Positions 1 through 20,240 of a stretch of 20,803 nucleotides of DNA are shown piece by piece. Under the pieces are notes generated by a model, which saw only the letters and a list, made by a program, of their open reading frames with translations, did not search any database and had not been told where the DNA came from. The stretch is taken from positions 1-20,803 of IMG/VR virus record IMGVR_UViG_3300004369_000191. One strand, 5' to 3'. The stretch's first letter is position 1; the number at the start of each line of letters is the position of its first letter. Position numbers and translations under genes: made by a program. The stretch is from a virus.

Positions 1-2541
1 ACCGCTAAATCCTGAGTTAGCTGTAATTGTTGTACCAGTAATTGCCGCTGCCGCGTTAGCACCAATAATCGCTCCATCGACAGCACCACCATTAATGTCT
101 ACAGTTGCAAATGTGCTTGTACCACTGGATGAAATGTCACCTGTAACATCACCTGTTACGTTTCCTGTTACGTTACCAGTCAAGTCACCTGTTACATCGC
201 CTGTAACATTACCTGTTACGTTACCTGTTACGTTACCAGTTACATCACCAGTCAAGTCACCTGTTACATCACCTGTTAGGTTGCCTTCAAATGTTGCGGC
301 AACTAGTGTGCCTGCTGTAATTGTTAAATCACCTGTGCTTGCACCCGTAGCTGATGTTGTACCAACAATAAACTTGTCTGCGCTTTCATCAAATCCGATA
401 AAGCCATTGTCACCTGTTGAACCACGCTCTAAAATTAGACCTAGGTCATTTGAGTTAGCGCCAGCGTTTCCTGAACCTAGTTCAATCAATGCGTCTTCAA
501 TGGTTGTGTTTGTTGCGTTGTTTGTAACCGTAGAACCGTTAACTGTTAAGTTACCGGTAATAGTTATGTTACCACCAATACTAGCATCATTGGTTACTGT
601 TAGATCGTTGCCAATGGTTACGTCAGATGGTAGACCAATTGTTAGTGTGTCTGACCCGTCAGTGCTTATTGCAACTTCAACTTCGTTAGCTGTGCCTGCT
701 ACTGTTAGTGCATCGCCACTACCAATAGTTTCTGTATCAGAACCAACTATAATATCCCATGTACTGGAAACACTTGCTGTTGTTACCGCTGTGATTAAAC
801 CTTTACCGTTAACAGTAATAACAGGAATAGAAGTTGTACCACCAAATGATCCTGTATCAGTATTCACTGTTGCTAGTGTAGTTGAAATAGTTGCTGTATC
901 GCCTGCGTCTTGGAATGTAGCGGTACCGGTTGCGTCACCACTTAGTGCTACTGTAACTGCACTGCTCAATCCATCTGCATCATCTGCTACACCTGTTAAA
1001 TTACCAGTTACGTTACCAGTTACGTTACCAGTAACATCACCAGTAACATCACCAGTGAAAGTAGCGTCTGTTCCGTCAGTTCCGCTATCAAGGATAGTTG
1101 TTCCATTAGATGATTTAACATCACCTGTTACGTTACCTGTTACGTTACCTGTTACGTCGCCAGTGACATCACCAGTGAAGGTAGCATCAGTTCCGTCTGT
1201 ACCCGAGTCAAGAACCGTAGTGCCGTTAGATGATTTAACATCACCTGTCAAGTCACCATTTACATTTCCAGTAACATTACCAGACAGATCTCCTGTTACG
1301 TTTCCAGTAAAGGTAGCGTCTGTTCCGTCAGTGCCTGAGTCAAGAACCGTAGTACCATTTGCAGCCTTTACGTCTCCAGTAACATCGCCTGTTACGTTAC
1401 CTGTTACATCACCAGTCAAGTCACCTGTTACATCACCTGTTAAGTTACCGCTAAATCCTGAGTCAGCTGTAATTGTTGTACCAGTAATTGCCGCTGCCGT
1501 GTTAGCACCAATTACTGTGTCGTCAATATTACCACCATCAATGTCTACAGTTGCAAATGTTGATGTGCCGCTGGATGAAACATTACCTGTTAAATCGCCA
1601 GTTACGTTTCCTGTTAAAGTGCCAGTAATTCCGCCACTTGCACTTAATGTTGTAAAAGCACCTGTACTTGCTGAAGTAGCGCCAATTGATGTTGCATCAA
1701 TAGCACCACCATTAATGTCAACTGTAGCAAATGTGCTTGTACCACTGGATGAAACATCACCAGTTACGTCACCAGTTACGTCACCAGTTACATCGCCTGT
1801 TAGATCGCCTGTAAGATTAAAAGAAGCATTTGAAACTGTAGCACCGTTTAGGTTAACTGTTCCGCTAAACGTTGAAGTTCCTGCTGAAGTGATATTTCCT
1901 GTAACGTCACCTGTTACGTTACCTGTTACGTCACCTGTTACATCACCAGTCAAGTCACCTGTTACATCACCTGTAACATTACCTGTTAGGTTGCCTGTTA
2001 CGTCACCAGTTACGTCACCAGTTAGGTCGCCTGTAAAGGTAGTTGCTGTTAAACTACTAACACCAGTAATATTGCCACCTGTAATACTAACAGTACCATC
2101 TGTTAGTTCGCTACCTGTGATTACTGCGGCTTGAAAATCTGCATAAGAATCTCTAGTCACTGTACCAGCGGTGTTGCCAGTTTCAGTAGTGAGCATAGCT
2201 TCGAACTGTGCAGTATCTTCTTTCCAAACAAATGCGGCGTTAACGTTGTTTCCTGCACCGCCTACTTGTGTTAAGTTTCTGTTTGCAAGAATACCGATAT
2301 CTCTATTGGGTGACCCGGTATAGCCGTTGTTGAAAACGATCAACGGATCGTTAACATATGTATTGGTGCTTGATACTGTTTGAGTTGCACCACTTACTGT
2401 GAGGTTACCTGAAATTGTGATGTTTGAGGAAAATGTTAAGTTGGCTGCAAACAGACCACCGGTAAGTGACCCTGTTTCAACCTTCGCCGCATTAATCTCA
2501 CCATCACCAATTTGGTTATTTAAAATTCTGGTGATCGCCAT
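1..2541 (-). CDS. Repetitive fibre-like virion protein, C-terminus beyond the window (partial)
   Basis: The minus-strand frame is open from an ATG at 2541 to the left edge, giving 847 codons with no stop, so the C-terminus lies outside. The start (MAITRILNNQIGDGEINAAK) has AGGAG about 10 bases upstream. After a non-repetitive N-terminal module, the protein carries long runs of a Gly-Asp/Asn-Val/Leu-Thr tetrapeptide (GDVTGNVTG type), at roughly 2033-1897, 1812-1756, 1631-1582, 1449-1372, 1305-1243, 1177-1120, 1054-988 and 288-133. These alternate with recurring units: a GTTVLDSGTDGTDATFTG unit three times and an SSGTSTFATVDI unit three times. No signal peptide or membrane segment is visible. 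Repetitive Gly/Thr proteins of this kind are common fibre or virion components in marine T4-like phages; a role in a fibre, whisker or neck appendage is inference. Confidence is high that the gene is real and modest for its location in the particle. Confidence 0.88.
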   Translation of the reverse strand, partial: MAITRILNNQIGDGEINAAKVETGSLTGGLFAANLTFSSNITISGNLTVSGATQTVSSTNTYVNDPLIVFNNGYTGSPNRDIGILANRNLTQVGGAGNNVNAAFVWKEDTAQFEAMLTTETGNTAGTVTRDSYADFQAAVITGSELTDGTVSITGGNITGVSSLTATTFTGDLTGDVTGDVTGNLTGNVTGDVTGDLTGDVTGDVTGNVTGDVTGNITSAGTSTFSGTVNLNGATVSNASFNLTGDLTGDVTGDVTGDVTGDVSSSGTSTFATVDINGGAIDATSIGATSASTGAFTTLSASGGITGTLTGNVTGDLTGNVSSSGTSTFATVDIDGGNIDDTVIGANTAAAITGTTITADSGFSGNLTGDVTGDLTGDVTGNVTGDVTGDVKAANGTTVLDSGTDGTDATFTGNVTGDLSGNVTGNVNGDLTGDVKSSNGTTVLDSGTDGTDATFTGDVTGDVTGNVTGNVTGDVKSSNGTTILDSGTDGTDATFTGDVTGDVTGNVTGNVTGNLTGVADDADGLSSAVTVALSGDATGTATFQDAGDTATISTTLATVNTDTGSFGGTTSIPVITVNGKGLITAVTTASVSSTWDIIVGSDTETIGSGDALTVAGTANEVEVAISTDGSDTLTIGLPSDVTIGNDLTVTNDASIGGNITITGNLTVNGSTVTNNATNTTIEDALIELGSGNAGANSNDLGLILERGSTGDNGFIGFDESADKFIVGTTSATGASTGDLTITAGTLVAATFEGNLTGDVTGDLTGDVTGNVTGNVTGNVTGDVTGDLTGNVTGNVTGDVTGDISSSGTSTFATVDINGGAVDGAIIGANAAAAITGTTITANSGFSG

Positions 2542-2593
2542 TTGCTTGTTGCTCCTATGTGATCCTACAATGGAATGTATTAATCTACATGAA

Positions 2594-2601
2594 TATTTAT
2601 C
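2594..2601 (-). promoter_or_regulatory. T4-type late promoter GATAAATA
   Basis: The minus strand reads C-GATAAATA, a one-base variant of the T4 late consensus TATAAATA. It lies about 53 bases upstream of the ATG of the repetitive fibre-like gene, which would give a leader of roughly 45 bases containing the AGGAG ribosome binding site. Confidence 0.6.
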
Positions 2602-2671
2602 GTAGTCGTGACGAAACGTTCCGTAGACGATATATTCCACAGAATTTTATTAAACGAGTATCAAAAGGAAT

Positions 2672-2712
2672 TTTTATTGATGTGTATTAGCTTTATTTAT
2701 ACATCAATAAAA
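2672..2712. repeat. 12-bp perfect inverted repeat around a late promoter
   Basis: The arms TTTTATTGATGT (2672-2683) and ACATCAATAAAA (2701-2712) are perfect complements with a 17-base loop. The right arm encodes the last residues of the 575-residue virion protein and its stop codon lies at the loop edge. The loop contains most of the TATAAATA late promoter. On the minus transcript the stem is not followed by a clear U tract, so it is at best a weak terminator. Confidence 0.6.
2694..2701 (-). promoter_or_regulatory. T4-type late promoter TATAAATA
   Basis: This is a perfect match to the T4 late consensus on the minus strand. It overlaps the TAA stop codon of the upstream gene and would give the repetitive fibre-like gene a second transcript with a leader of about 150 bases. 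Confidence 0.65.
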
Positions 2713-4424
2713 GAAACAGTATATTTAACAACACTAGTTCCGCTACTGCTAGTGCCTTGAAATAACATGTTTCCAGAGTTGACAGTAACCGTATATGTAA
2801 TAAATTGTGCGTTAGTTACAATTTGTGAATATTGATTTCTATATGCTGTTGTTCCGTTGTGAATGATTAGCATTTCGTCAACTTGATAATCCGTACCATT
2901 AGTAGCTTGCACTACAACTTTTGCACTTCTGTGTTTAGTCATGTCAAATGATATAATAGTTGTAGCACTGGTTCCAACACTGACGCCCGCCAATGGCGAC
3001 ACCGTAGAAAGTTTATTCCACGAAGTTCCATTGTATGCGTAGAATGTTCCGTCTGAATCAGCCCAATACTGCCCAGTAAGATTACCGCCGGTGCTAGTTG
3101 TAGGAGGCGATAACAAATCATTTCTATACATATTTTCTCTAACAACCTGCGATGCTAGATATCTAATATCAACTTCGTCTGTGGCTAGAGGAGCTTCAGA
3201 AAATGTAATCTGTTGATTTAATATTGAATAACTTGTAGTGTGTTGGACAACACCGTTCCATGTAATAAGAACAGAATCTACAGTTGCATCGTTAGACAGA
3301 TTAAATGTAGTTGTGTTTCCGTCGCCAACAAAATCTTGTTGATATAATGTCGTTTGTCCAACCGGAGCCCAAGCAGACCCGTCATTGAACTCTACTAATG
3401 AGGTTTCTGAGTTAAACCTGATTTGACCTAAACTATTAGCAGGACGTTGACTGCTTGTGCCTGTTGGTAATACCAATGAGCCTGTAGAATCAATTTCTAA
3501 TACAGTTGTAGCAGAATAAGGTTTCCACAAGTCAACTGCTAGTCCATCAGAATCAAACAGTGCTTTGCCTGTTCCGTTGATAGTTATTTCAACGTCTTGT
3601 GCAGTATCGTCTGCAATAACAGTTGTTGTTCCATCAATTATTCTATCTTGATTAAATCCTGCCAGAGCAGTATCAACATAATTTTTAGTTGCCGCATCCT
3701 GTGCGTCGGTAGGATCGGCAACGTTAATAATAGGTGCGCTTTCGACACTGATTGATCCAGTGCCGTCTGGATCTAAAACAATGTTGCTATTTCCGCTAGA
3801 AGTGTAAATCTTATAGCCGGTAATATCTAAGTCGCCGCCTAGTACCGGATTAGTGTCATCAAGTAAATCTCCAATGACGCCAAACGTTCCAATATATCTA
3901 GCACCTACTACGAAAACACTTTTTCCAGTGACGCCCGTTGCAAGCTCTGATGGTAAGTTGTCACCAATAAAGTGAACAACACCGCTTTGATAATCAAAGA
4001 ACCATTCATCATCGTTGCCACTACCAGCCGCTAGTAACTGTGTACCAGTGCTTTGTGGTGTAGTACTTCCAGCAGTATCAATATAAATCTTAATAAGATA
4101 GGTAGCACCAAACTCTGTAGGAATCCAGTCTGTTAGACCAGTTAACCAAGTTCTGTTATCGCTGGAGGTAATATCTTCTGTACATTCTACTGTAGCTGTT
4201 CCGTTACCCGTGTCATCATAGATTTCAACCTGCGAAGAACTAGCACTAGGTTTAACTGCTGGGATGTCTCCACTGTCCTGCCAAATTCTATCACCGCGGA
4301 TTAGTAATGGACTTGCTATACTTTCGTTGAATGCTCGCTTGAATGCAAGAGTGTCTGTTTTAGTAACACCGTAACCTAGTTTCTTAAATAGGTAGTCAAC
4401 TTTTTGGGTATCTGAAATAGCCAT
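2697..4424 (-). CDS. Fibre-like virion structural protein (575 aa)
   Basis: The start ATG shares its A with the TAA stop of the preceding gene (TAATG), so translation is probably coupled. The N-terminus (MAISDTQKVDYLFKKLGYG) is compact and charged. It is followed by a region with DDTNPVLGGDLDI and NVADPTDAQDAATKNYVD, the latter a motif often seen in phage tail fibre and collar proteins. The middle contains an IRFNSETSLVEFNDGSAW segment and a VGDG-x-TT-x-FNL segment, both shared with the 146-residue gene at 7783. The C-terminal quarter is a beta-rich Thr/Ser/Val region. No catalytic motif is visible. It is most likely a neck, tail or fibre component of the virion; the exact position in the particle cannot be read from the sequence. 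Confidence 0.85.
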   Translation of the reverse strand: MAISDTQKVDYLFKKLGYGVTKTDTLAFKRAFNESIASPLLIRGDRIWQDSGDIPAVKPSASSSQVEIYDDTGNGTATVECTEDITSSDNRTWLTGLTDWIPTEFGATYLIKIYIDTAGSTTPQSTGTQLLAAGSGNDDEWFFDYQSGVVHFIGDNLPSELATGVTGKSVFVVGARYIGTFGVIGDLLDDTNPVLGGDLDITGYKIYTSSGNSNIVLDPDGTGSISVESAPIINVADPTDAQDAATKNYVDTALAGFNQDRIIDGTTTVIADDTAQDVEITINGTGKALFDSDGLAVDLWKPYSATTVLEIDSTGSLVLPTGTSSQRPANSLGQIRFNSETSLVEFNDGSAWAPVGQTTLYQQDFVGDGNTTTFNLSNDATVDSVLITWNGVVQHTTSYSILNQQITFSEAPLATDEVDIRYLASQVVRENMYRNDLLSPPTTSTGGNLTGQYWADSDGTFYAYNGTSWNKLSTVSPLAGVSVGTSATTIISFDMTKHRSAKVVVQATNGTDYQVDEMLIIHNGTTAYRNQYSQIVTNAQFITYTVTVNSGNMLFQGTSSSGTSVVKYTVSFIDV

Positions 4425-7400
4425 TATGAAGCCGCTCCTATCGCAATGCTATCAATGTAGTCACCGCTTTCTAGTCTTATACGCACAAGACAGTTTTTAC
4501 CTGTTGCGTTGGATAAGTTTTCGCTACCCAATGTTTGTGTATAACGTTGGTTGTTGATTACTGTGTTTAAAGGTATTCTATCACTGCTGGTTAACGCACA
4601 GCCTGCGCTACCGTTGCCGCCTGCACCTGTGTTAGTTCCGGGAAGGCCAGCTCCGCCATAGCTTGCATTGCAATCAATCCAGCCATTGGTTGAGCTAGCC
4701 GAAGCATCGATGCCTGTGCCTGGAGCGGCAATCCAAACACCATGCACTTTGCCTGTTAGTATAATGTCAAAGTTTGCTAGGTTGGATCGTCTAAATGCAA
4801 ATGTAAAATATTGTGCTCCACTACGTCCAGTAAATAAGTCTGGACCTACTGGCAAATAGCCCGAGCTGTAATCTGTTGTAAAATGTTTTAATTGCCCCCA
4901 ACGCACGATTGCTTCGTCTGTTCCTGCTACTGTTTCTGCTCCACTCCATGCATTATTAGTATAAAAGTCTGCGGGAGTATAAGATGGGTTATCGCCGCCG
5001 AGGCCCAATGCTACACGTTTTCCGTCATCGCTAAATCCACTGCCTAATGTGTTTAAGACGTCGATATTTCCTTCATCAAACCCTGAAATGCTTTGATTGT
5101 ATACATTAATTTTTGTCGGAAATGTCACTGTGGTACTAGTACCATTAACATTGTTAATACTTGCTTGTAGTTGTGCAACTGCTCTTGCACTGCCATTGAT
5201 GTTTACGCTCAATGCACCAAACGTATACGCTACTGTTCTTCCTGTGTCTGCTTGGGGATGACCTCCTGTCAGATATGCGGATACACCTTCCAAGTCTGCA
5301 TAAGTTTTAGTTTGTGTACTAATAATTGCGCCGCTAGTATTTTCATCATTTGGTCCATCAACAACACTCAAAGGACTGCCACTTCTATAAGTTTGTCCTA
5401 TCCAATTGGTCACAGCTAATCCATTGATATCTACAACACCGCCTGTATTATAATAAGGAATGCCTGAGATGTATGTTAGACTGCCAGCAGTATTTTCAGT
5501 TAGTGTAACACCACTAATATCTAGTGTTGGTACTGCACTTAAAGAATCGTTTACAAATCCTATAGCATTTGTATCGCCTGTAGTACTATGACTCAGTTTA
5601 TATTCATGATAACCAAAATCTGTTACTGTCTTGCTAATACTTGCACTAAAAACTTTATAAAAACCTGATGGATATGTGCTAGAACTAATCGCATTATGTG
5701 CATCTGCATCTTCTGAAATTATCAAGCTACCTGTAGTTCCTACATTGTTACTTGTTGTTGTAAATGTTACATTACCATCATCAATACCATCAATTAATGC
5801 TGTAAGTGTTCCTGTCGTAGCATCGTATACGTCGGTAATTGAGGATGATACAAAAGTTCCACCTTGATATCGAGTAACGCTAGTTCCTGCGGCAGGAATA
5901 TTGCCACCCGTATAGTCTGTTGCATTTGCAGTTAATAACGGACTAGTACCTGTGCTAGCAGTACTCATCGATAGTGTTCTTGAACTTAGTCCGGTGGGTT
6001 GACTTGGATTGGTTCTTATGGTAATATAGTTACTACGTGTTTCTGTATCTGTTTGTGTTAGTGATGCAGGTTGACCTGTTACTGCCAATGCGACAGTTTT
6101 GTTGCCTGTTGAAGTATAAGTGTGTTGAATAGCCCCGCCTGATACCGTTCCTGCGGCACCTTCAGCAATATTGACGTCTGTTTGACCATCGCCCCATGTC
6201 CAATTATATGTGTCAGCGTGTTGACTGGTTGTTGTAAATTCAAATACGTTGAACGGTGTGCCATCTCTGTAGTCTGTAAACACATATCCGTCTTGTGCAT
6301 CATCGCCAGTTCTGTCACTTTGATGTGTATTAGCACCAGCAAAGTTGCTACGCACATCGGGCTCAACTGTAATAGTAGTTATAGCACTTGAAAAAGGACT
6401 AGCACTATGCAGATTAATGGCATCTAGTGTAACATCGAATGTTGCGCTTGTTCCGTTGTTTTGTTCTGTTGCTGTTAGCGAAAATGTATGATTGATTGTT
6501 GTGCTCGGATTTCCCGATAAACCGTTTTGAACATTGATAGTATTTGTGTCTCCGTCTCCCCAGGTCCATTTGTATCTATTAGAACTAAATGTGCTAGTTA
6601 ATCCAAGCCCAGCTGGGGTAGTGTTTGTAAAGGTAACAACACCACCACTGGTTGCTTCTTCGTTAGCAACAACTATAGTGTTAGTTGTAAAGGCTGGTGT
6701 GTGTATTCCATATACTCTAATATCTTGCGGTGTGCCGTTTACTGTAACTGGTGTAGGGCCAGCCGTTGAACTAGTTGCATCTAGTTGAATTTGATATTCA
6801 GTATCTACGCCAGGATTTGAGTAAACATGATTTAGTGTGGTCCAGTTAACTGTTGGCGCATCTGTTGTGCTATCTCCCCAATCTAATGCAAAACTTGTTG
6901 CAAACTGACTGTTATTAGTAATTGTTCCGTTTGACCCACTATCAATATCTGTATCAGTAATAGTAAATGCAGGTATTGGGTTTGGGGTATAAAGGGTGAT
7001 ATAATTATTTCGTGTAAAGTCATCCCAGCTACCAACTGCACCCAATGAAGGATCACCGCTCAGTGTTCCGGTGCTGTTGTATGCTCTAACGGTAACTGTG
7101 AACTGTCCGCCTTGTGTATTATTATAAGTATGGGTTGGGTCCTCAGACGTACTAGCATTTCCGTCACCAAAATCCCATTCGTAAGAATCAGGATTGCCTG
7201 TATAACTTGGTGTAAAGCGAACAGTCATAGGACTAGGACCAGCAACTACGTTTGCTGTAAAGGTAACTTCGCCAACATAGGTATTTTTTGCAATGTTTAA
7301 TGCTGTTTGGTTTAGATCATCGATAGCATTAGTAACTTTAGTACTGCTAGTCCACCCATCCCAGGCAGCATTAGTTACTAAACTAGAATCTGATGGAGTT

Positions 7401-13748: not shown

Positions 13749-15461
13749 TTAAAGCGGATTTCCTGCCGCATCCACACCCGATGCGGCACCTGTGTCTACT
13801 GGTGCTTCTACACCTGCATCAGCACCTGCGTCTGGCTCTTCAGGAACTTCAGCGGCATCGAGGTCGGTTTCGATCCCGCCAGGCGTAATACCAACGTTAC
13901 GCAGACTTGGTTCATCAGTTGATGCAGTATTAGCTTTGCCTTGCTCTTCTTTCCACATAATTTCGTTTTCAGCGATCTCAGCTTCGCTCATGCCTAGATA
14001 ACGTTGCATTAAGAAACGTTTACTTAGATATGCAAAACCTTCTAACTGTGTAAACGTGCCAATTCTAGCGGCATCAACATCTGCTTGACGATACTGTGCA
14101 AAGTTTTGTGGCTCTTCAAACACTAATTCAAAGATCTGACTGTCAATGTTAAATCCTCTCCAACGTAGGAACATTTTAAACTCTGTGTCCAACTTGTCGA
14201 TAATCATCGATTGAATACGTTTGCAGTATTGATTAAAACGCCATTCTTGAATCAATGCTGTGCCAACACGGCCGTCTGTGAAACTTTGTGTGCCGTCGTC
14301 CATGCCAGTTGGCAGATATGAACTAGGAATACGCAAACCACGAAATAGCTTGTTAGTAAAGAAACGTAAATCTGTGATCTCACCTAAGTTACTACCTCCT
14401 GGTAGTGTTTCTACACTAGATCCTCTGCCGTCGGCAGTTTGTGGGAAGAAGTAGTCTTCGTTTGTGCTGAGTGGATTATATGTTGCATCCATCATGTTTA
14501 CACCACCACCGCTTTGTGTTGGAATACGACGTTGATGCACTTCGTTTTTAACACGGTCAACAAATGCCATAGCCATATGACTGGGCATGTTACCTACGTC
14601 AATCTTAAAGATTCTACGTTCTGGCGCACGTTGTACACGATAGATAATAATAGCATCTTCTAGCAGTTCTTTTTGCTTAAACACTTTAAACACATTTTCT
14701 AACACTGAGTTACCAAATGGCCAAAACATGTCTAAACCTTCTGTTAGGCTTAGATGTACTACGTGTTCTGCATCCAGCACTGCTTCGCTTTGTGCTGAAT
14801 TAAAACGTGAACCACTGCTATAAGGCGAATTGGGTTGAATGTAACCATTGCCTGAGTTGTTAGCACCTGCATTAGGTGTACTAACATATGCATCACTTGA
14901 ACTAACCGCTGTAGTTGTTAAATTTTCAAAGTTCGGGTTGAGATCACGGATAACATACTGCTCTGGCTCTTTGCCTTCTGCTTCGTTTACAATAACCTTA
15001 ACAACTTTGTTCATTTCAGTCCAGTATAACTTGAACGTTTCTGGATCACGCAAGAACACTTGATCGCCATACTTGATAGTATTGCGTAGGATTTTAAAGA
15101 TGCGCTGATTAAACTTGTTTAAGTTTACCCAATGAATAAGTTGTTCGTTAATAATCTTTACTTCGTTATCTGTGGGACTTTCATTAAAGTGTAGATCAAA
15201 TGGTGTATTGTTTGCGGTGTTCTTTTGTGTACTAAACTCTGCAATAATGTCCAAGGCGGCATTGATTTCACTGTCCATGTCCATTTGCTCGTATTGATTA
15301 TAACGTTCAATACGGTTTGGATGCCCAATATAGACCTCAGGCAAATGACTTTGATAGTTTCTAAATGCCGGATCTTGAGGCGCACCACCGCCACTGCCAA
15401 CAGGACTTAATAAACCTGCTGTACTAGTATTTGCGGTTTTAAAATATTTTTTCCAACTCAT
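13749..15461 (-). CDS. 20: Portal vertex protein, gp20-like (570 aa)
   Basis: This forms the dodecameric portal through which DNA is packaged and to which the neck and tail attach; it also initiates prohead assembly. The segments YEQMDMDSEINAALDIIAEF (near residue 55-75), KVFKQKELLEDAIIIYRVQRAPERRIFKID and the LRFFTNKLFRGLRIPSSYLP region are characteristic of gp20 in T4-like phages, and the gene heads the gp20-gp23 block. It is slightly longer than T4 gp20 (524 residues), the extra being a Pro/Ala/Asp/Gly-rich C-terminal tail (about the last 55 residues). GGAAGAG lies about 8 bases upstream of the ATG and an AATAAATA late promoter about 31 bases upstream. Confidence 0.96.
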   Translation of the reverse strand: MSWKKYFKTANTSTAGLLSPVGSGGGAPQDPAFRNYQSHLPEVYIGHPNRIERYNQYEQMDMDSEINAALDIIAEFSTQKNTANNTPFDLHFNESPTDNEVKIINEQLIHWVNLNKFNQRIFKILRNTIKYGDQVFLRDPETFKLYWTEMNKVVKVIVNEAEGKEPEQYVIRDLNPNFENLTTTAVSSSDAYVSTPNAGANNSGNGYIQPNSPYSSGSRFNSAQSEAVLDAEHVVHLSLTEGLDMFWPFGNSVLENVFKVFKQKELLEDAIIIYRVQRAPERRIFKIDVGNMPSHMAMAFVDRVKNEVHQRRIPTQSGGGVNMMDATYNPLSTNEDYFFPQTADGRGSSVETLPGGSNLGEITDLRFFTNKLFRGLRIPSSYLPTGMDDGTQSFTDGRVGTALIQEWRFNQYCKRIQSMIIDKLDTEFKMFLRWRGFNIDSQIFELVFEEPQNFAQYRQADVDAARIGTFTQLEGFAYLSKRFLMQRYLGMSEAEIAENEIMWKEEQGKANTASTDEPSLRNVGITPGGIETDLDAAEVPEEPDAGADAGVEAPVDTGAASGVDAAGNPL

Positions 15462-15504: not shown

Positions 15505-18500
15505 TTATACTGAATTACGAGCTAAAGTTCTTTGGCTATTTGCAGAGTCGTCAAGTAACGCTATAACTTGTCTAAGTAGTTCATTGGTTAATTCTTGTGG
15601 TGGTAATGTTGTTAATCGTTCAGCTTCTTTCTTCTTAGCTTCTTCCACTTTGGCTAGTTGCTCTGCTTCTGCCTTCTTTTTGGCTTCTGCTGCCTGTTTA
15701 GCCATTTCAGTTTGTTTTGCTTCTTCAAGAGGTTTGCCTGTTTGTGCAGAAACTGTTTTAGATGCATCTACGCCAGCGACTGTTTTGGATGCTTGAAGTT
15801 GGTTTAATTGGTTTTCGTAACGTTCTAAGTCTCTCTGCCTCACCTTAGCACGAAATGTGCCTTGAGGACCGTTCTGTTGTTGTTCTTTAAGACGTGCAAT
15901 TCTACTTTTTAGTTGATCAATTTTAACTTGTTTAGGATCTTTTGTTGCTTCTGCGGCTGTATCTTTGCTAGCTTCTTTTTCAGACCCACCAAACAAGCCG
16001 CCAAAGAAATTACCTACTGCACCAGTTACACTTTTAGCGATACTACCTACTTTGTCTTTAATAGCACCTAAGTCAACATTTTCTTTTAGAGATTGCCATC
16101 CTTTACTAGTCCATTCGCCAATAGTATCAAGGCCTTCTCCAATGGTTTCCTTACTTACTAGACCAAATGTCATACCAGATAGTAGCCCACTTGCTTGTGC
16201 TTTAACAGCTTTACCTATATCACCGCTGTTTTTCCATTCATCCCATCCAGCAGTAACGTTTCCGAATTGATTCTCGACCCATCCACCAACTTTGCTTAAT
16301 CCAGCAGATATTGTTTCTTGGTCGATAAGTCCAAATGTTAAACTACTTGCGGCGCCAGCAAGACCTTCTCTAACAGCTCCTTTTAAATTTCCTGATTTTT
16401 TATATTCTTCAATGCCTGCTGTAAATCCATCAAAAATACTCATACCAGCGGTTATTGCAAGACCAACAGGACCAGCGAACTTGGCGGCGCCGCCAAGAAG
16501 TTTTGCGCCGCCTTTTAAAAGACCGCCAGCGGCACCAGCGCCTTTGCTTGCTACACCAGCAACAGCTTGACCGGCGCTACCAGCTTTACTAAGTAAATTC
16601 CCGCCTAGTTTGCCTAACCCTAGTTTACCAGGCATCATAGTCATAGCAACAGTTAACGCTCCGATTGCTGTTGTTAAATATCCAATACCTTCAGTGAGCT
16701 TAAAAGCCCCTATCATATCGTCAACACTCATTTTAGAAAATTCAGTAACTTTTTTCTGTAGTGCTTCGATGTCTTTATTCATCAACGAGATAACGTCACT
16801 ATACTTTACTACTAGTTGATCTGTAATTTGCTGTTGCTTAATGATTAACTGTTGCGATTCAATAGTATTTTGTACAATTTTACCGGTTTCAGTAGTAGGA
16901 TCTGTACCTTGTGCAACTTGTCCTTCGACGTTCTTTCGTGCATTGTCTAATGCTGTTTTTGTTTGCTTGACAGTATCGTCTAGCATACCAACCATTGATT
17001 TAGAAACTTCACCTGCTAAACCGCCGACTCCAGCCATAGCTGCCGCGCCAATGTCTGGACCTCGAGCAAGAATTTCTTTTCGAATCTGGTCTGCGGTATC
17101 GGCTTGTATATCAGCAACTTTTTGAACATTTAATGTTCCTGCGGTAGCAGAATTGCTAAACTGTTCTATACGCTCATTAAATCCAGCACTCATCGAAGCA
17201 AATGCTGCCGCATCTTTACTGACAATCTGTCCATAGACCATCTTTTCTCTAAATGCTTTGGCTTCGATGGCAGACATTTTAGCAGTTGCTTGTTCAACCA
17301 TTTGGGCTTGCTCGGGTCCCATTTGAGCTAGTTTTGCACGGAATGCTAATTCATTGTTCGCTTCTTTAGCAGATGCCATGCGTTTACGTGCATCATCACC
17401 TGTTAAAGCTCCAATTAGTTTTAGGTTGTTTGCATACTCTTTGGTATTTTGTGCAATGGCTGCTTCATCACCCGGACCAACTTGGCCACCTCGACGCATC
17501 ATGGCCATTGTTTCAGCCATGAGCTCGCCTTGTTCTTCAAATCCATATCCGAGGGCAAGTAACTCGGTCTTCATCGACTTGCCACCTGCTTGCATTGCGC
17601 CGCCCATTAACTTAGCGGCTTCAGTTACACCCAAGCCAGACTCAGCAAACGTTGCACTATTTTTCTGTAATACTCTACTGAATTGTTCAGTAGTCATGCC
17701 AGCACCGTATGCACCTTTACGCATGCCTTCGAGACCATCAGCAAAAGCGCCGCCAGCTTGTGTTAAACTATTAAACATTGAAAGATTACGCTTATACGCA
17801 ATCTTGCTCATGTCTATCATTTCTTTAGCAAGTTTTGCACCTGCGCCTGCAATGCTTTCAATAATAGGACCGAGAATGGTCATTGCGGCGCCTACTTTAC
17901 CAGCAGTGCCTCCCATATTTGAAAGTGCTTGTCCTGCTTCTTTAGCAGTTTCGGACATCACTTTAAGTGATTGTTCTGCCGCATTGACATATACATCTAG
18001 CATTGAGCTAGCGATATCTGCCGCATCTGCTCCGTCTTGTAATCCTTTAGCAACGTTGAACAGCCCAGGTACTACTGTACCTGTAACAACCTTGCTCATT
18101 CTCATCATAGTATTCGATGCAAGGCCAACATTTGTCTTATAAATTGCTAAGTTGCGTAATTGTTCTTTCTGCGAACTTAGCATAGTTGCTTCGTACGCAT
18201 TTCCCGACATGGTCAACTCTTTGATGGTTTCGTCGAGATCTTTAAACCCTTCAGCCGCGGCTTGGGTGTTTGCACCTTGCCCTTCGGTAATACGCCTAAA
18301 TAAGTTTAAACCTTTATTAGACTTCTGAACACTATCAGTTAACCGTTTAATTTCAGCCGATGCCGCGGCAAAGTCCTTTCCTGCAACATCAGGAGAAACA
18401 TTTCGAGCGCCGCTGCCGCCAGCCCCTACACTAGGTCCGACGCCTGCTTGTGCTAGTCGAGAAGCTTCTAAAAACGCATCCGATATAGCACGTTTAAACT

Positions 18501-18531
18501 CTTCTGCACTCATACTGCCTAGATCAGCCAT
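15505..18531 (-). CDS. Probable tail tape measure protein (1008 aa)
   Basis: This is a long, mostly helical, Ala/Gly/Lys-rich protein with hydrophobic Gly/Ala segments in the third quarter (GIGYLTTAIGALTVAMTMM, then GGAAKFAGPVGLAITAGMS). That is the usual make-up of tape measure proteins, which set tail length and enter the cell envelope during infection. After the hydrophobic part comes a tandem pair of about 50 residues each with the pattern K-x-SG-x4-AV ... S-x2-TFGL-x3-ETI-x2-GL. A Lys/Glu/Ala coiled coil follows (about residues 890-975), then a short end (ELLRQVIALLDDSANSQ). At about 1.5 angstrom per residue, 1008 residues would correspond to a tail near 150 nm (rule of thumb). It is longer than T4 gp29 (590 residues), and homology to gp29 is not evident by eye; another large tail or internal protein remains possible. 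AAGGA precedes the start, and a shared divergent promoter region links it to gp26/gp51. Confidence 0.8.
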   Translation of the reverse strand: MADLGSMSAEEFKRAISDAFLEASRLAQAGVGPSVGAGGSGARNVSPDVAGKDFAAASAEIKRLTDSVQKSNKGLNLFRRITEGQGANTQAAAEGFKDLDETIKELTMSGNAYEATMLSSQKEQLRNLAIYKTNVGLASNTMMRMSKVVTGTVVPGLFNVAKGLQDGADAADIASSMLDVYVNAAEQSLKVMSETAKEAGQALSNMGGTAGKVGAAMTILGPIIESIAGAGAKLAKEMIDMSKIAYKRNLSMFNSLTQAGGAFADGLEGMRKGAYGAGMTTEQFSRVLQKNSATFAESGLGVTEAAKLMGGAMQAGGKSMKTELLALGYGFEEQGELMAETMAMMRRGGQVGPGDEAAIAQNTKEYANNLKLIGALTGDDARKRMASAKEANNELAFRAKLAQMGPEQAQMVEQATAKMSAIEAKAFREKMVYGQIVSKDAAAFASMSAGFNERIEQFSNSATAGTLNVQKVADIQADTADQIRKEILARGPDIGAAAMAGVGGLAGEVSKSMVGMLDDTVKQTKTALDNARKNVEGQVAQGTDPTTETGKIVQNTIESQQLIIKQQQITDQLVVKYSDVISLMNKDIEALQKKVTEFSKMSVDDMIGAFKLTEGIGYLTTAIGALTVAMTMMPGKLGLGKLGGNLLSKAGSAGQAVAGVASKGAGAAGGLLKGGAKLLGGAAKFAGPVGLAITAGMSIFDGFTAGIEEYKKSGNLKGAVREGLAGAASSLTFGLIDQETISAGLSKVGGWVENQFGNVTAGWDEWKNSGDIGKAVKAQASGLLSGMTFGLVSKETIGEGLDTIGEWTSKGWQSLKENVDLGAIKDKVGSIAKSVTGAVGNFFGGLFGGSEKEASKDTAAEATKDPKQVKIDQLKSRIARLKEQQQNGPQGTFRAKVRQRDLERYENQLNQLQASKTVAGVDASKTVSAQTGKPLEEAKQTEMAKQAAEAKKKAEAEQLAKVEEAKKKEAERLTTLPPQELTNELLRQVIALLDDSANSQRTLARNSV

Positions 18532-18621: not shown

Positions 18622-19557
18622 ATGGAAAATTCAAATGAGCAACAAATGCCATCTAATCTAGGAATGGCACAACTAGGCGGACCTATGCAAGGTGCACCGC
18701 AAGCTATGCAACCAGGACAGAACCCTCTTGCAGGGCATTTTCGTATGCCAAAAATTCATCTGCAATTACCAAGCGGAGGGAAATGGTGGAAACCAGGCTC
18801 ATTAGAGCTTCCGGTTACTGGAGAAGTGCCTATCTACGCAATGAGTGCTAAAGATGAAATACTATTAAGAACTCCAGATGGACTAATGAACGGTAGTGCT
18901 GTTAAACAAGTTATTGAACACTGTTGTCCTAGCATCAAAGATGCATGGGGCATGCCTAGTGTCGATACTGATGCTATTTTAATTGCTATTCGAATTGCAA
19001 CGTTTGGAGAGCAAATGGATATCAATATACATTGCCCTAGTTGCAACGAAGAAAACTCTTACGGGGTTGACTTAGGAAATAGGCTAGCACAAGTTCACAT
19101 TCCAGACTATGATACTCCCGTTGCTATTGACGATCTAGAATACATTTTTCATCCGCAAACATATAACGCTGTTACAAGACTAAACAAAATGCGATTTACA
19201 CAAGATCGAATTGCACAGTTATTGTCAGACAACGATATGAGCGACGAAGAAAAAACCGCAGGACTTACTAAAAACTTTGGTGACTTAGTAGATATTAGTA
19301 TCGATAATTTGGTAGAAAGCACTAAAGCTATTAGAATGCCCGACGGGTCTATAGTTACTCACAAACCTCACATCAAAGAGTACTATAATAATGCAGAATC
19401 TAGACTCATTACTAAACTCAATGAGAAACTTGTTCAATTTGCCGACCAAGCAGGTCTAGGTATCATGGATCTTAAATGTCAACATTGCGAGCATGAATTC
19501 CAAAATGCTATCGAATTCGATTACGCAAATTTTTTCGACGAAGCCTCCTCCAGTTAA
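18622..19557 (+). CDS. 26: Baseplate hub/assembly protein, gp26-like (311 aa)
   Basis: In T4, gp26 is needed to build the baseplate hub. The N-terminal 40 residues are Met/Gln/Pro/Gly-rich and probably flexible; the conserved part starts near FRMPKIHLQLPSGGKWWKPG (40-59). Two CxxC pairs, CPSC (138-141) and CQHC (286-289), could together bind one zinc ion. The region between them is helical and charged. The frame ends DEASSS only six codons after the in-frame slippery sequence at 19527-19536, so a share of ribosomes probably shifts to the -1 frame and continues into the gp51-like part. AGGA lies 8 bases before the ATG. The gene is divergent from the tape measure gene and shares a promoter region with it. 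It is longer than T4 gp26 (208 residues). Assignment to the T4 gp26-type baseplate family is by recognition of the conserved segments and context. Confidence 0.85.
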   Translation: MENSNEQQMPSNLGMAQLGGPMQGAPQAMQPGQNPLAGHFRMPKIHLQLPSGGKWWKPGSLELPVTGEVPIYAMSAKDEILLRTPDGLMNGSAVKQVIEHCCPSIKDAWGMPSVDTDAILIAIRIATFGEQMDINIHCPSCNEENSYGVDLGNRLAQVHIPDYDTPVAIDDLEYIFHPQTYNAVTRLNKMRFTQDRIAQLLSDNDMSDEEKTAGLTKNFGDLVDISIDNLVESTKAIRMPDGSIVTHKPHIKEYYNNAESRLITKLNEKLVQFADQAGLGIMDLKCQHCEHEFQNAIEFDYANFFDEASSS

Positions 19558-19769
19558 AAACCGAGCAAGAAATCGTAGCACTAATCAAACGCTACGAGAA
19601 AGAGGTGGAGGCTATAAGAGATAACTGCTTGCGTTTATGTTGGTGGATGCGCGGTTCAATTTCTTATACCGAGATGTTTGAGTTAGACATCAATGAACGC
19701 GAAATGATTAATAAAATTGTAGAAGGTAATTTAGAGACTACAAAGAAAAGCTCATTGCCGTTCTTTTAA
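19497..19769 (+). CDS. 51: gp51-like reading frame, probably made as a -1 frameshift extension of gp26
   Basis: This frame is open from 19497 to a TAA at 19767-19769 and overlaps the end of the gp26-like gene in the -1 frame. There is no ATG before the middle of its conserved part (YEKEVEAIRDN, CLRLCWWMRG), and no ribosome binding site fits a start at its beginning. A slip at 19530-19536 would join gp26 residue 305 to 77 residues of this frame, ending NLETTKKSSLPFF, giving a 382-residue fusion. The 77 residues form a charged helix, a Cys-Trp-Trp core and a short helical end. Small proteins with this ending are, from memory, annotated as gp51 baseplate hub assembly catalyst in marine T4-like phages; T4 gp51 itself is much longer. 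Initiation at an internal GTG (19605) is the alternative but would cut the conserved part. Confidence 0.78.
   Translation: MPKCYRIRLRKFFRRSLLQLKTEQEIVALIKRYEKEVEAIRDNCLRLCWWMRGSISYTEMFELDINEREMINKIVEGNLETTKKSSLPFF
19527..19613 (+). promoter_or_regulatory. Programmed -1 ribosomal frameshift signal
   Basis: In the gp26 frame the bases read GCA AAT TTT TTC. This contains two overlapping X-XXY-YYZ heptamers, A_AAT_TTT (19527-19533) and T_TTT_TTC (19530-19536). Five bases later a stem begins: AGCCTCC (19542-19548) pairs with GGAGGCT (19607-19613), extended by CC/GG after one mismatch. Its loop holds a second perfect 7-bp hairpin, TCGTAGC (19573-19579) with GCTACGA (19591-19597). Slippery site, spacer and structure are in the standard arrangement, and the -1 frame is open to 19769. 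Confidence 0.8.
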
Positions 19770-19818
19770 GGATCTCTACGAGATCCGTTGTTTCGCTAAC
19801 GCTCACAACATTTTTTTT
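19770..19818 (+). terminator. Terminator after gp26/gp51
   Basis: Immediately after the gp51-like stop comes a perfect 7-bp hairpin, GGATCTC-TAC-GAGATCC (19770-19786). A weaker stem follows, GTTGT (19787-19791) with ACAAC (19805-19809), then a base and eight T residues (19811-19818). The U tract after the second stem makes this a credible intrinsic terminator for the plus-strand unit. Confidence 0.65.
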
Positions 19819-20240
19819 ACTTGAGACTTATTATATATTGAACTTTCACGTAGATTGTTTCAGTCAGACGGAACCTGTTAAGGGTTCCGTCTATCTCGAA
19901 TTTCACGTGAGTTCATCACAGCCGAGACTTGGAAGTAGGTAATTTTCTGCTACACAATGGGCTCTGACCTTTCCCAACCTACGTCGACATATGTAACATA
20001 AAGAGTGCATTAAACGCTTTAATGCTTCCTTTATAGTACATTACCCGTTGCTTCGTTCCTAGTGCATACGGTTTTTATGTGTAATGTGCAGTTTTTCGAT
20101 AGCCAACAGTCTATCTACGTCAACCAGTAGCCCAATCTGTTTGATGGCTTCCACACTCTGGTGTGTCGATCAACGTGTTACGTGTGTTCCGATCAAGGAT
20201 ACTTTTTCCACAGCGGTATTTTCAAACTGGCCCGCTAACC
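19819..20240. other. Intergenic region rich in inverted repeats, no supported gene
   Basis: The gap lies between the 3' ends of two convergent units. I see no convincing coding frame. It holds several inverted repeats: AGACGGAACC / GGTTCCGTCT (19866-19875 / 19883-19892), enclosed by GAACT-TT-CACG / CGTGAGTTC (19840-19850 / 19906-19914); GTAGGT / ACCTAC (19935-19940 / 19977-19982) enclosing GGG / CCC; GCATTAAA-CGC-TTTAATGC (20007-20025); and GTACATTAC / GTAATGTGC (20036-20044 / 20081-20089, one wobble). None has a clear U tract, and no tRNA could be folded by eye. A non-coding RNA, a processing region or a remnant of lost genes are all possible. Confidence 0.5.

Follow-up and report, generated by a model that had tools for sequence, protein, structure and literature searches.

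A probable frameshifted tail assembly chaperone cassette and a putative structured RNA in an uncultivated T4-like phage

The window, that is, the whole stretch of DNA analysed here, is an IMG/VR virus record of 20,803 bases. Its minus strand carries T4-like head genes, and a gp26-like gene lies on the plus strand at the right end (Table 1). Positions 1-2640 of the minus strand encode a highly repetitive protein with (GDVTGN)n-type repeats, and the long open frame at 2-2134 on the plus strand is probably the shadow of this protein. At its end, the gp26-like gene reads GCA AAT TTT TTC GAC GAA GCC TCC TCC AGT TAA. Two slippery heptamers, A_AAT_TTT and T_TTT_TTC, overlap in this frame and jointly span 19527-19536, and the -1 frame is open from 19536 to 19766 (77 codons), with a stop at 19767-19769. 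Two products are predicted: a short form of 311 residues (TAC-N), ending at the stop six codons past the heptamer, and a long form of 305 + 77 = 382 residues (TAC-NC), of which the -1 frame would provide the extension (TAC-C). In all these points, the positions of both heptamers included, the geometry agrees with the original prediction.

Table 1. Features of the chaperone locus and its surroundings in the window
Feature	Position	Strand	Basis or remark
Portal protein (T4 gp20-like)	13749..15461	-	phrog_213 E=1.8e-107
Divergent gene for a probable tape measure protein (1008 aa)	15505..18531	-	position, size
TAC-N, gp26-like gene, 311 aa	18622..19557	+	PF12322, phrog_150 matches
Upstream slippery heptamer A_AAT_TTT	19527..19533	+	read in gp26 frame
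Main slippery heptamer T_TTT_TTC	19530..19536	+	in gp26 frame; conserved in relatives
TAC-C, -1 frame extension, 77 aa + stop	19536..19769	+	predicted to be reached only by frameshift
Outer stem, 5' arm (7 bp, mismatch, 2 bp)	19542..19551	+	folding; starts 5 bases past heptamer
0-frame stop TAA of TAC-N	19555..19557	+	six codons past heptamer
Nested 7-bp hairpin in outer-stem loop	19573..19597	+	folding
Outer stem, 3' arm	19604..19613	+	folding
Terminator-like hairpin	19770..19786	+	directly after TAC-C stop; identical in L005
Conserved noncoding stretch, ~400 nt	~19830-20240	+ (presumed)	covariation, conservation

TAC-N belongs to the family of T4 gp26 and gp51. It matches PF12322 (T4_baseplate) with E=4.3e-16, which passes the curated cut-off, and phrog_150 (baseplate hub) with E=1.4e-15; for the T4 proteins themselves, the PF12322 E-values are 8.8e-64 (gp26) and 3.9e-52 (gp51). 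A mixed alignment of 16 TAC-N sequences was too diverse for scanning the collections, and single proteins were used as queries. The predicted structure of TAC-N is confident (mean pLDDT 89.8) and resembles T4-like baseplate hub assembly proteins, while a Foldseek search of the PDB found no solved relative of the model. TAC-C is predicted to form a small helical domain (mean pLDDT 89.2), for which no significant viral match was obtained.

Residues 1-201 of T4 gp51 constitute a complete gp26-type PF12322 domain, and its C-terminal part matches phrog_634. Cyanophage S-SM2, Astolliot and Rhizobium phage RHph_I9 have -1 ORFs that fall into this family as well. T4 gp51 thus combines a gp26-type domain with a C-terminal domain shared with frameshift ORFs, and by this composition it is evidently the long form encoded in one gene: the fusion is hard-wired in T4. 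As in the window, the short form (gp26) and the N-terminal domain of the long form (gp51) are of the same type; the difference is that T4 uses two separate genes and no frameshift. The original description of the -1 frame as gp51-like consequently fits the C-terminal domain of gp51 but not the whole protein. For the window's own extension, hhalign gives a weak profile match to the C-terminal part of gp51, with a probability of no more than 41%, and hhalign comparisons with single T4 sequences had too little power. The T4 gp51 junction VFKLLVNPDEI resembles, by eye, the frameshift junction FFRTKLLISSPEEI of the relatives. Position, architecture and a shared short motif hint at a link between the window's extension and gp51.

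The divergent neighbour of TAC-N is likely the tape measure protein, as judged from the gene layout. The gene order in which the portal gene takes part is the same in jumbo phages, and a divergent ORF of at least 400 aa, mostly of more than 700, is found upstream of TAC-N in 107 cases. In S-SM2, Vibrio phage 6E35.1a and Astolliot, TAC-N, TAC-C and a large ORF follow each other in this order on the same strand. Position and size agree with the tape measure gene that had been proposed here, while profile evidence is confined to weak tape-measure matches for the equivalents in S-SM2, 6E35.1a and XaC1; the 1008-residue protein itself has no tape measure match in Pfam, PHROGs or NCBIfam, and no Pfam hit. 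In the PA5oct record, the portal protein and the neighbour are marked as detected by ESI-MS/MS and the gp26 homologue is not marked, which is no more than suggestive of its absence from the mature virion.

The names gp26 and gp51 could also be taken literally. The frameshift product would then have another role, for example as a true component of the baseplate hub; T4 gp26 has indeed been reported in the hub (PMC3004832), and the homologue in CBB is annotated as a structural protein. In the same review, however, both gp26 and gp51 are classed as chaperones of hub assembly, with gp51 absent from the particle (PMC3004832), and a short and a long form next to a large gene that probably encodes the tape measure protein make up the pattern of tail assembly chaperones. 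A hub role is therefore considered unlikely. Together with the PF12322 match, this pattern supports the chaperone function assigned by the original prediction, and the locus is very probably a tail assembly chaperone cassette of an uncultivated T4-like myovirus, in which a -1 frameshift would give rise to TAC-N and TAC-NC.

Among 123 distinct homologous junctions gathered from isolate records and IMG/VR, 121 contain an in-frame T_TTT_TT(C/T), as T_TTT_TTC in 119 and T_TTT_TTT in 2 cases. In each of these 121, the -1 frame continues for 56-93 residues. The second heptamer, A_AAT_TTT, is present in 65 of the 121. The codon ahead of TTT always ends in T, though it encodes nine different residues. 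After clustering at <60% identity, NNT_TTT occurs in 69 of 69 clusters, where about 23 would be expected from the codon usage of the genes (nominal log10 P -36.8, a value that ignores residual relatedness and refers to junctions picked by their T run, though this pick dropped only 2 of the 123). Elsewhere in the same loci, NNT_TTT is used at only 33 of 407 xFF sites. The conservation of the heptamer is evidently not due to chance, and it supports the frameshift interpretation. The expectation that the heptamers should be conserved in related phages is borne out for the main heptamer.

The two exceptions among the 123 are L122, which has lost T_TTT_TTC and kept A_AAT_TTT, and Vibrio phage D532, in which the canonical heptamer is gone. 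Two more junctions, beyond the 123, were read by hand: that of Rhizobium phage RHph_I9 shows T_TTT_TTG, and a canonical heptamer is absent from that of CBA120 (Ackermannviridae). D532 and CBA120 still encode the -1 frame peptide despite the loss of the heptamer; an ATG lies at the stop in D532, and none lies near the stop in CBA120. One IMG/VR contig (L147) carries two gp26-like genes, at 1784-2886 (+) and 4713-5821 (-), each with its own slippery heptamer and with -1 extensions of 77 and 93 residues.

The -1 frame is open and, by its substitution pattern, evidently constrained as protein: between the window and its relative L033, substitutions at codon positions 3, 1 and 2 number 30, 8 and 2. 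Alternatively, such a frame could be a small gene in its own right, whose translation starts by reinitiation at the gp26 stop or by coupling to it, the T run being incidental. An ATG overlaps or adjoins the gp26 stop in Phosso, Atu_ph07, 121Q and others, and the annotations of Phosso and 121Q place a gene of its own at this point. A good ATG and ribosome binding site for gp51 in relatives had been named beforehand as an argument against frameshifting, and early ATGs do occur in about one fifth of the relatives (25 of 121 within the first 12 codons). They are not maintained, since the ATG that overlaps the stop (RMRLL) is replaced by a Leu or Ile codon in close relatives while the heptamer stays. 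Furthermore, 72 of the 121 have no ATG, GTG or TTG within the first 12 codons of the -1 frame. In the window itself, none of these codons occurs in the first 20, and the earliest possible start is a GTG at 19605 (codon 24), so that 23 codons lack a start; the absence of a usable start codon had been correctly foreseen. Finally, a separate gene leaves the constraint on NNT_TTT_TTY unexplained. This reading is rejected as very unlikely, being disfavoured by start codons that are absent or unconserved and by a constrained heptamer. Coupled reinitiation may add to the output in ATG-bearing relatives; judged from its codons, the window's -1 frame cannot be explained in this way. In six relatives (L013, L014, L009, L015, L017 and L018), the deposited annotation shows a separate small gene after the gp26-like gene, named hypothetical or 'baseplate hub assembly catalyst', with an internal start that drops the first residues.

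An error in sequencing or assembly at the T run, such runs being error-prone in general, might also have broken a single gene into two frames; this reading has a negligible probability and is refuted by the two-frame layout of 121 distinct junctions, finished isolate genomes included.

A -1 frameshift is further supported by the RNA structure after the heptamer. In the window, AGCCUCC (19542-19548) pairs with GGAGGCU (19607-19613), followed by 2 bp. The 85-nt fold at the junction has -24.0 kcal/mol and z = -3.98, with 0 of 200 shuffles as good, which confirms by folding both the 7-bp stem with its 2-bp extension and the nested 7-bp hairpin that had been proposed. The nested hairpin is retained in L005 and L033 only. 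In most relatives, the RNA past the heptamer folds more stably than its shuffled versions, and the mean z of this fold differs with the spacing between heptamer and stop: -3.5 at 3 nt (n=42), -3.3 at 12 nt (n=22), -2.7 at 18 nt (n=6, window included) and -1.5 at 9 nt (n=44). In some distant relatives, namely RaK2 and the four junctions with 33 nt from heptamer to stop, no stem is evident.

Covariation was tested in 35 other relatives, the window's group being left out as its stem pairs are shifted by one base. RNAalifold finds unaided an 8-bp stem, GGCUUUUG/CAAAAGCC, with compensatory changes from UA to CG in 10 sequences and from GC to AU in 3. In both paired cells and covariation score, this stem exceeds 500 of 500 column shuffles, and pairing is lost when the register is slid; its number of pairs with double changes (2) is equalled by 116 of the 500 shuffles. 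The window's stem lies in the same place, with the register shifted by one base. It is identical in L005, L033 and L037, so the compensatory changes anticipated for the stem are those of the 35 relatives and not of the window's exact pairs. The stem is retained along with the heptamer, a pattern that would be expected if it stimulates frameshifting.

Phages lambda (G/GT) and P2 (E/E') produce short and long chaperones by a -1 frameshift beside the tape measure gene. The window's cassette is alike in its short and long forms by -1 frameshift but differs in protein family and heptamer, and no sequence or fold match was found between the window's proteins and solved chaperones. In the proposed mechanism, the majority of ribosomes would stay in the gp26-like frame and end at 19555-19557, giving the 311-residue TAC-N. 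A fraction would be held up by the RNA stem and move back by one base, either on T_TTT_TTC or, as the second option, on A_AAT_TTT; these ribosomes would add 77 codons to yield the 382-residue TAC-NC. By analogy with lambda gpG/gpGT, both forms may cover the tape measure protein, on which the tail tube protein would later replace the chaperone; the 1008-residue product of the divergent gene is probably this tape measure protein. Slipping, its efficiency and tape measure binding are what we infer here.

The chaperone genes of T4-like phages are said to have been identified by Vladimirov, Gautam and Davidson in 2022 (Virology 566:9-15), in an abstract that reportedly names T4 genes 26 and 51 and describes frameshifting as conserved in several other T4-like groups. 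The PRFect paper cites this work for T4-like phages in which the short form and the long fusion are encoded by separate genes (PMC10885494), and a 2025 paper cites poly-T slippery sites in T4-like chaperone genes as known (PMC12846349). The original prediction did not treat frameshifting as established for T4-like phages; by these two citations of Vladimirov et al. 2022, it had already been described. As described there, the T4-like system shares with the window a PF12322-type short form, a poly-T -1 slip, a C-terminal extension and a large adjoining gene that probably encodes the tape measure protein. Compared with the system as the citing papers describe it, the window differs in its uncultivated lineage, in a tape-measure-like gene that is divergent rather than downstream, and in the covarying stem after the heptamer in its relatives. 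In the tail assembly chaperone of the Vandenendeviridae and Andersonviridae (phage Adele), the end of TAC-N likewise carries a conserved poly-T site for a -1 frameshift (PMC12846349); set beside the window by description only, this chaperone differs in its GTTTTT motif and its families. The idea of a frameshifted T4-like chaperone is therefore not new, and the window's cassette is a well-supported new example.

In many phage genomes, the extension goes unannotated or appears as a hypothetical gene of its own, and the gp26/gp51-like pair bears the name of baseplate hub proteins. The 121 junctions, the codon constraint and the covarying stem support re-annotation as one frameshifted tail assembly chaperone in jumbo, cyano-, Vibrio and Rhizobium phages, and the comparative data agree with T4 gene 51 as a hard-wired long form.

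The stretch downstream of the cassette may hold more novelty than the cassette itself. The terminator-like hairpin that immediately follows TAC-C folds, together with a second hairpin, with z=-3.17. Positions 19770-20240 are 91% identical to L005, compared with 73% for the gp26 nucleotides, a contrast that is weak alone because the neighbouring portal and endonuclease genes are 94% identical. The noncoding stretch is nevertheless recognisable by blastn in phages with a distant TAC-N. With 9 sequences, RNAalifold predicts 75 pairs, 19 of which show compensatory changes; with 93 non-redundant sequences, 28 pairs are found at 98.8% pairing, 4 with double changes. An invariant 25-nt core, GGGCTCTGACCTTTCCCAACCTACG, occurs in 139 loci, some of them overlapping, and lies downstream of TAC-N on the same strand in 87 of the 87 loci with TAC-N in reach. 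The ~400-nt stretch has no match in Rfam, and blastn found none in isolate phages. On these grounds, it seems fairly likely that ~19830-20240 represents a new structured RNA family of uncultivated T4-like phages, which follows the chaperone gene on its strand and is possibly co-expressed with it. On the minus strand, a small gene at 20241-20711 matches homing endonuclease PHROGs; the PHROG with the highest score bears the name NAD synthetase, which is probably a wrong label within that family. A gene similar to this endonuclease adjoins the RNA element in L175.
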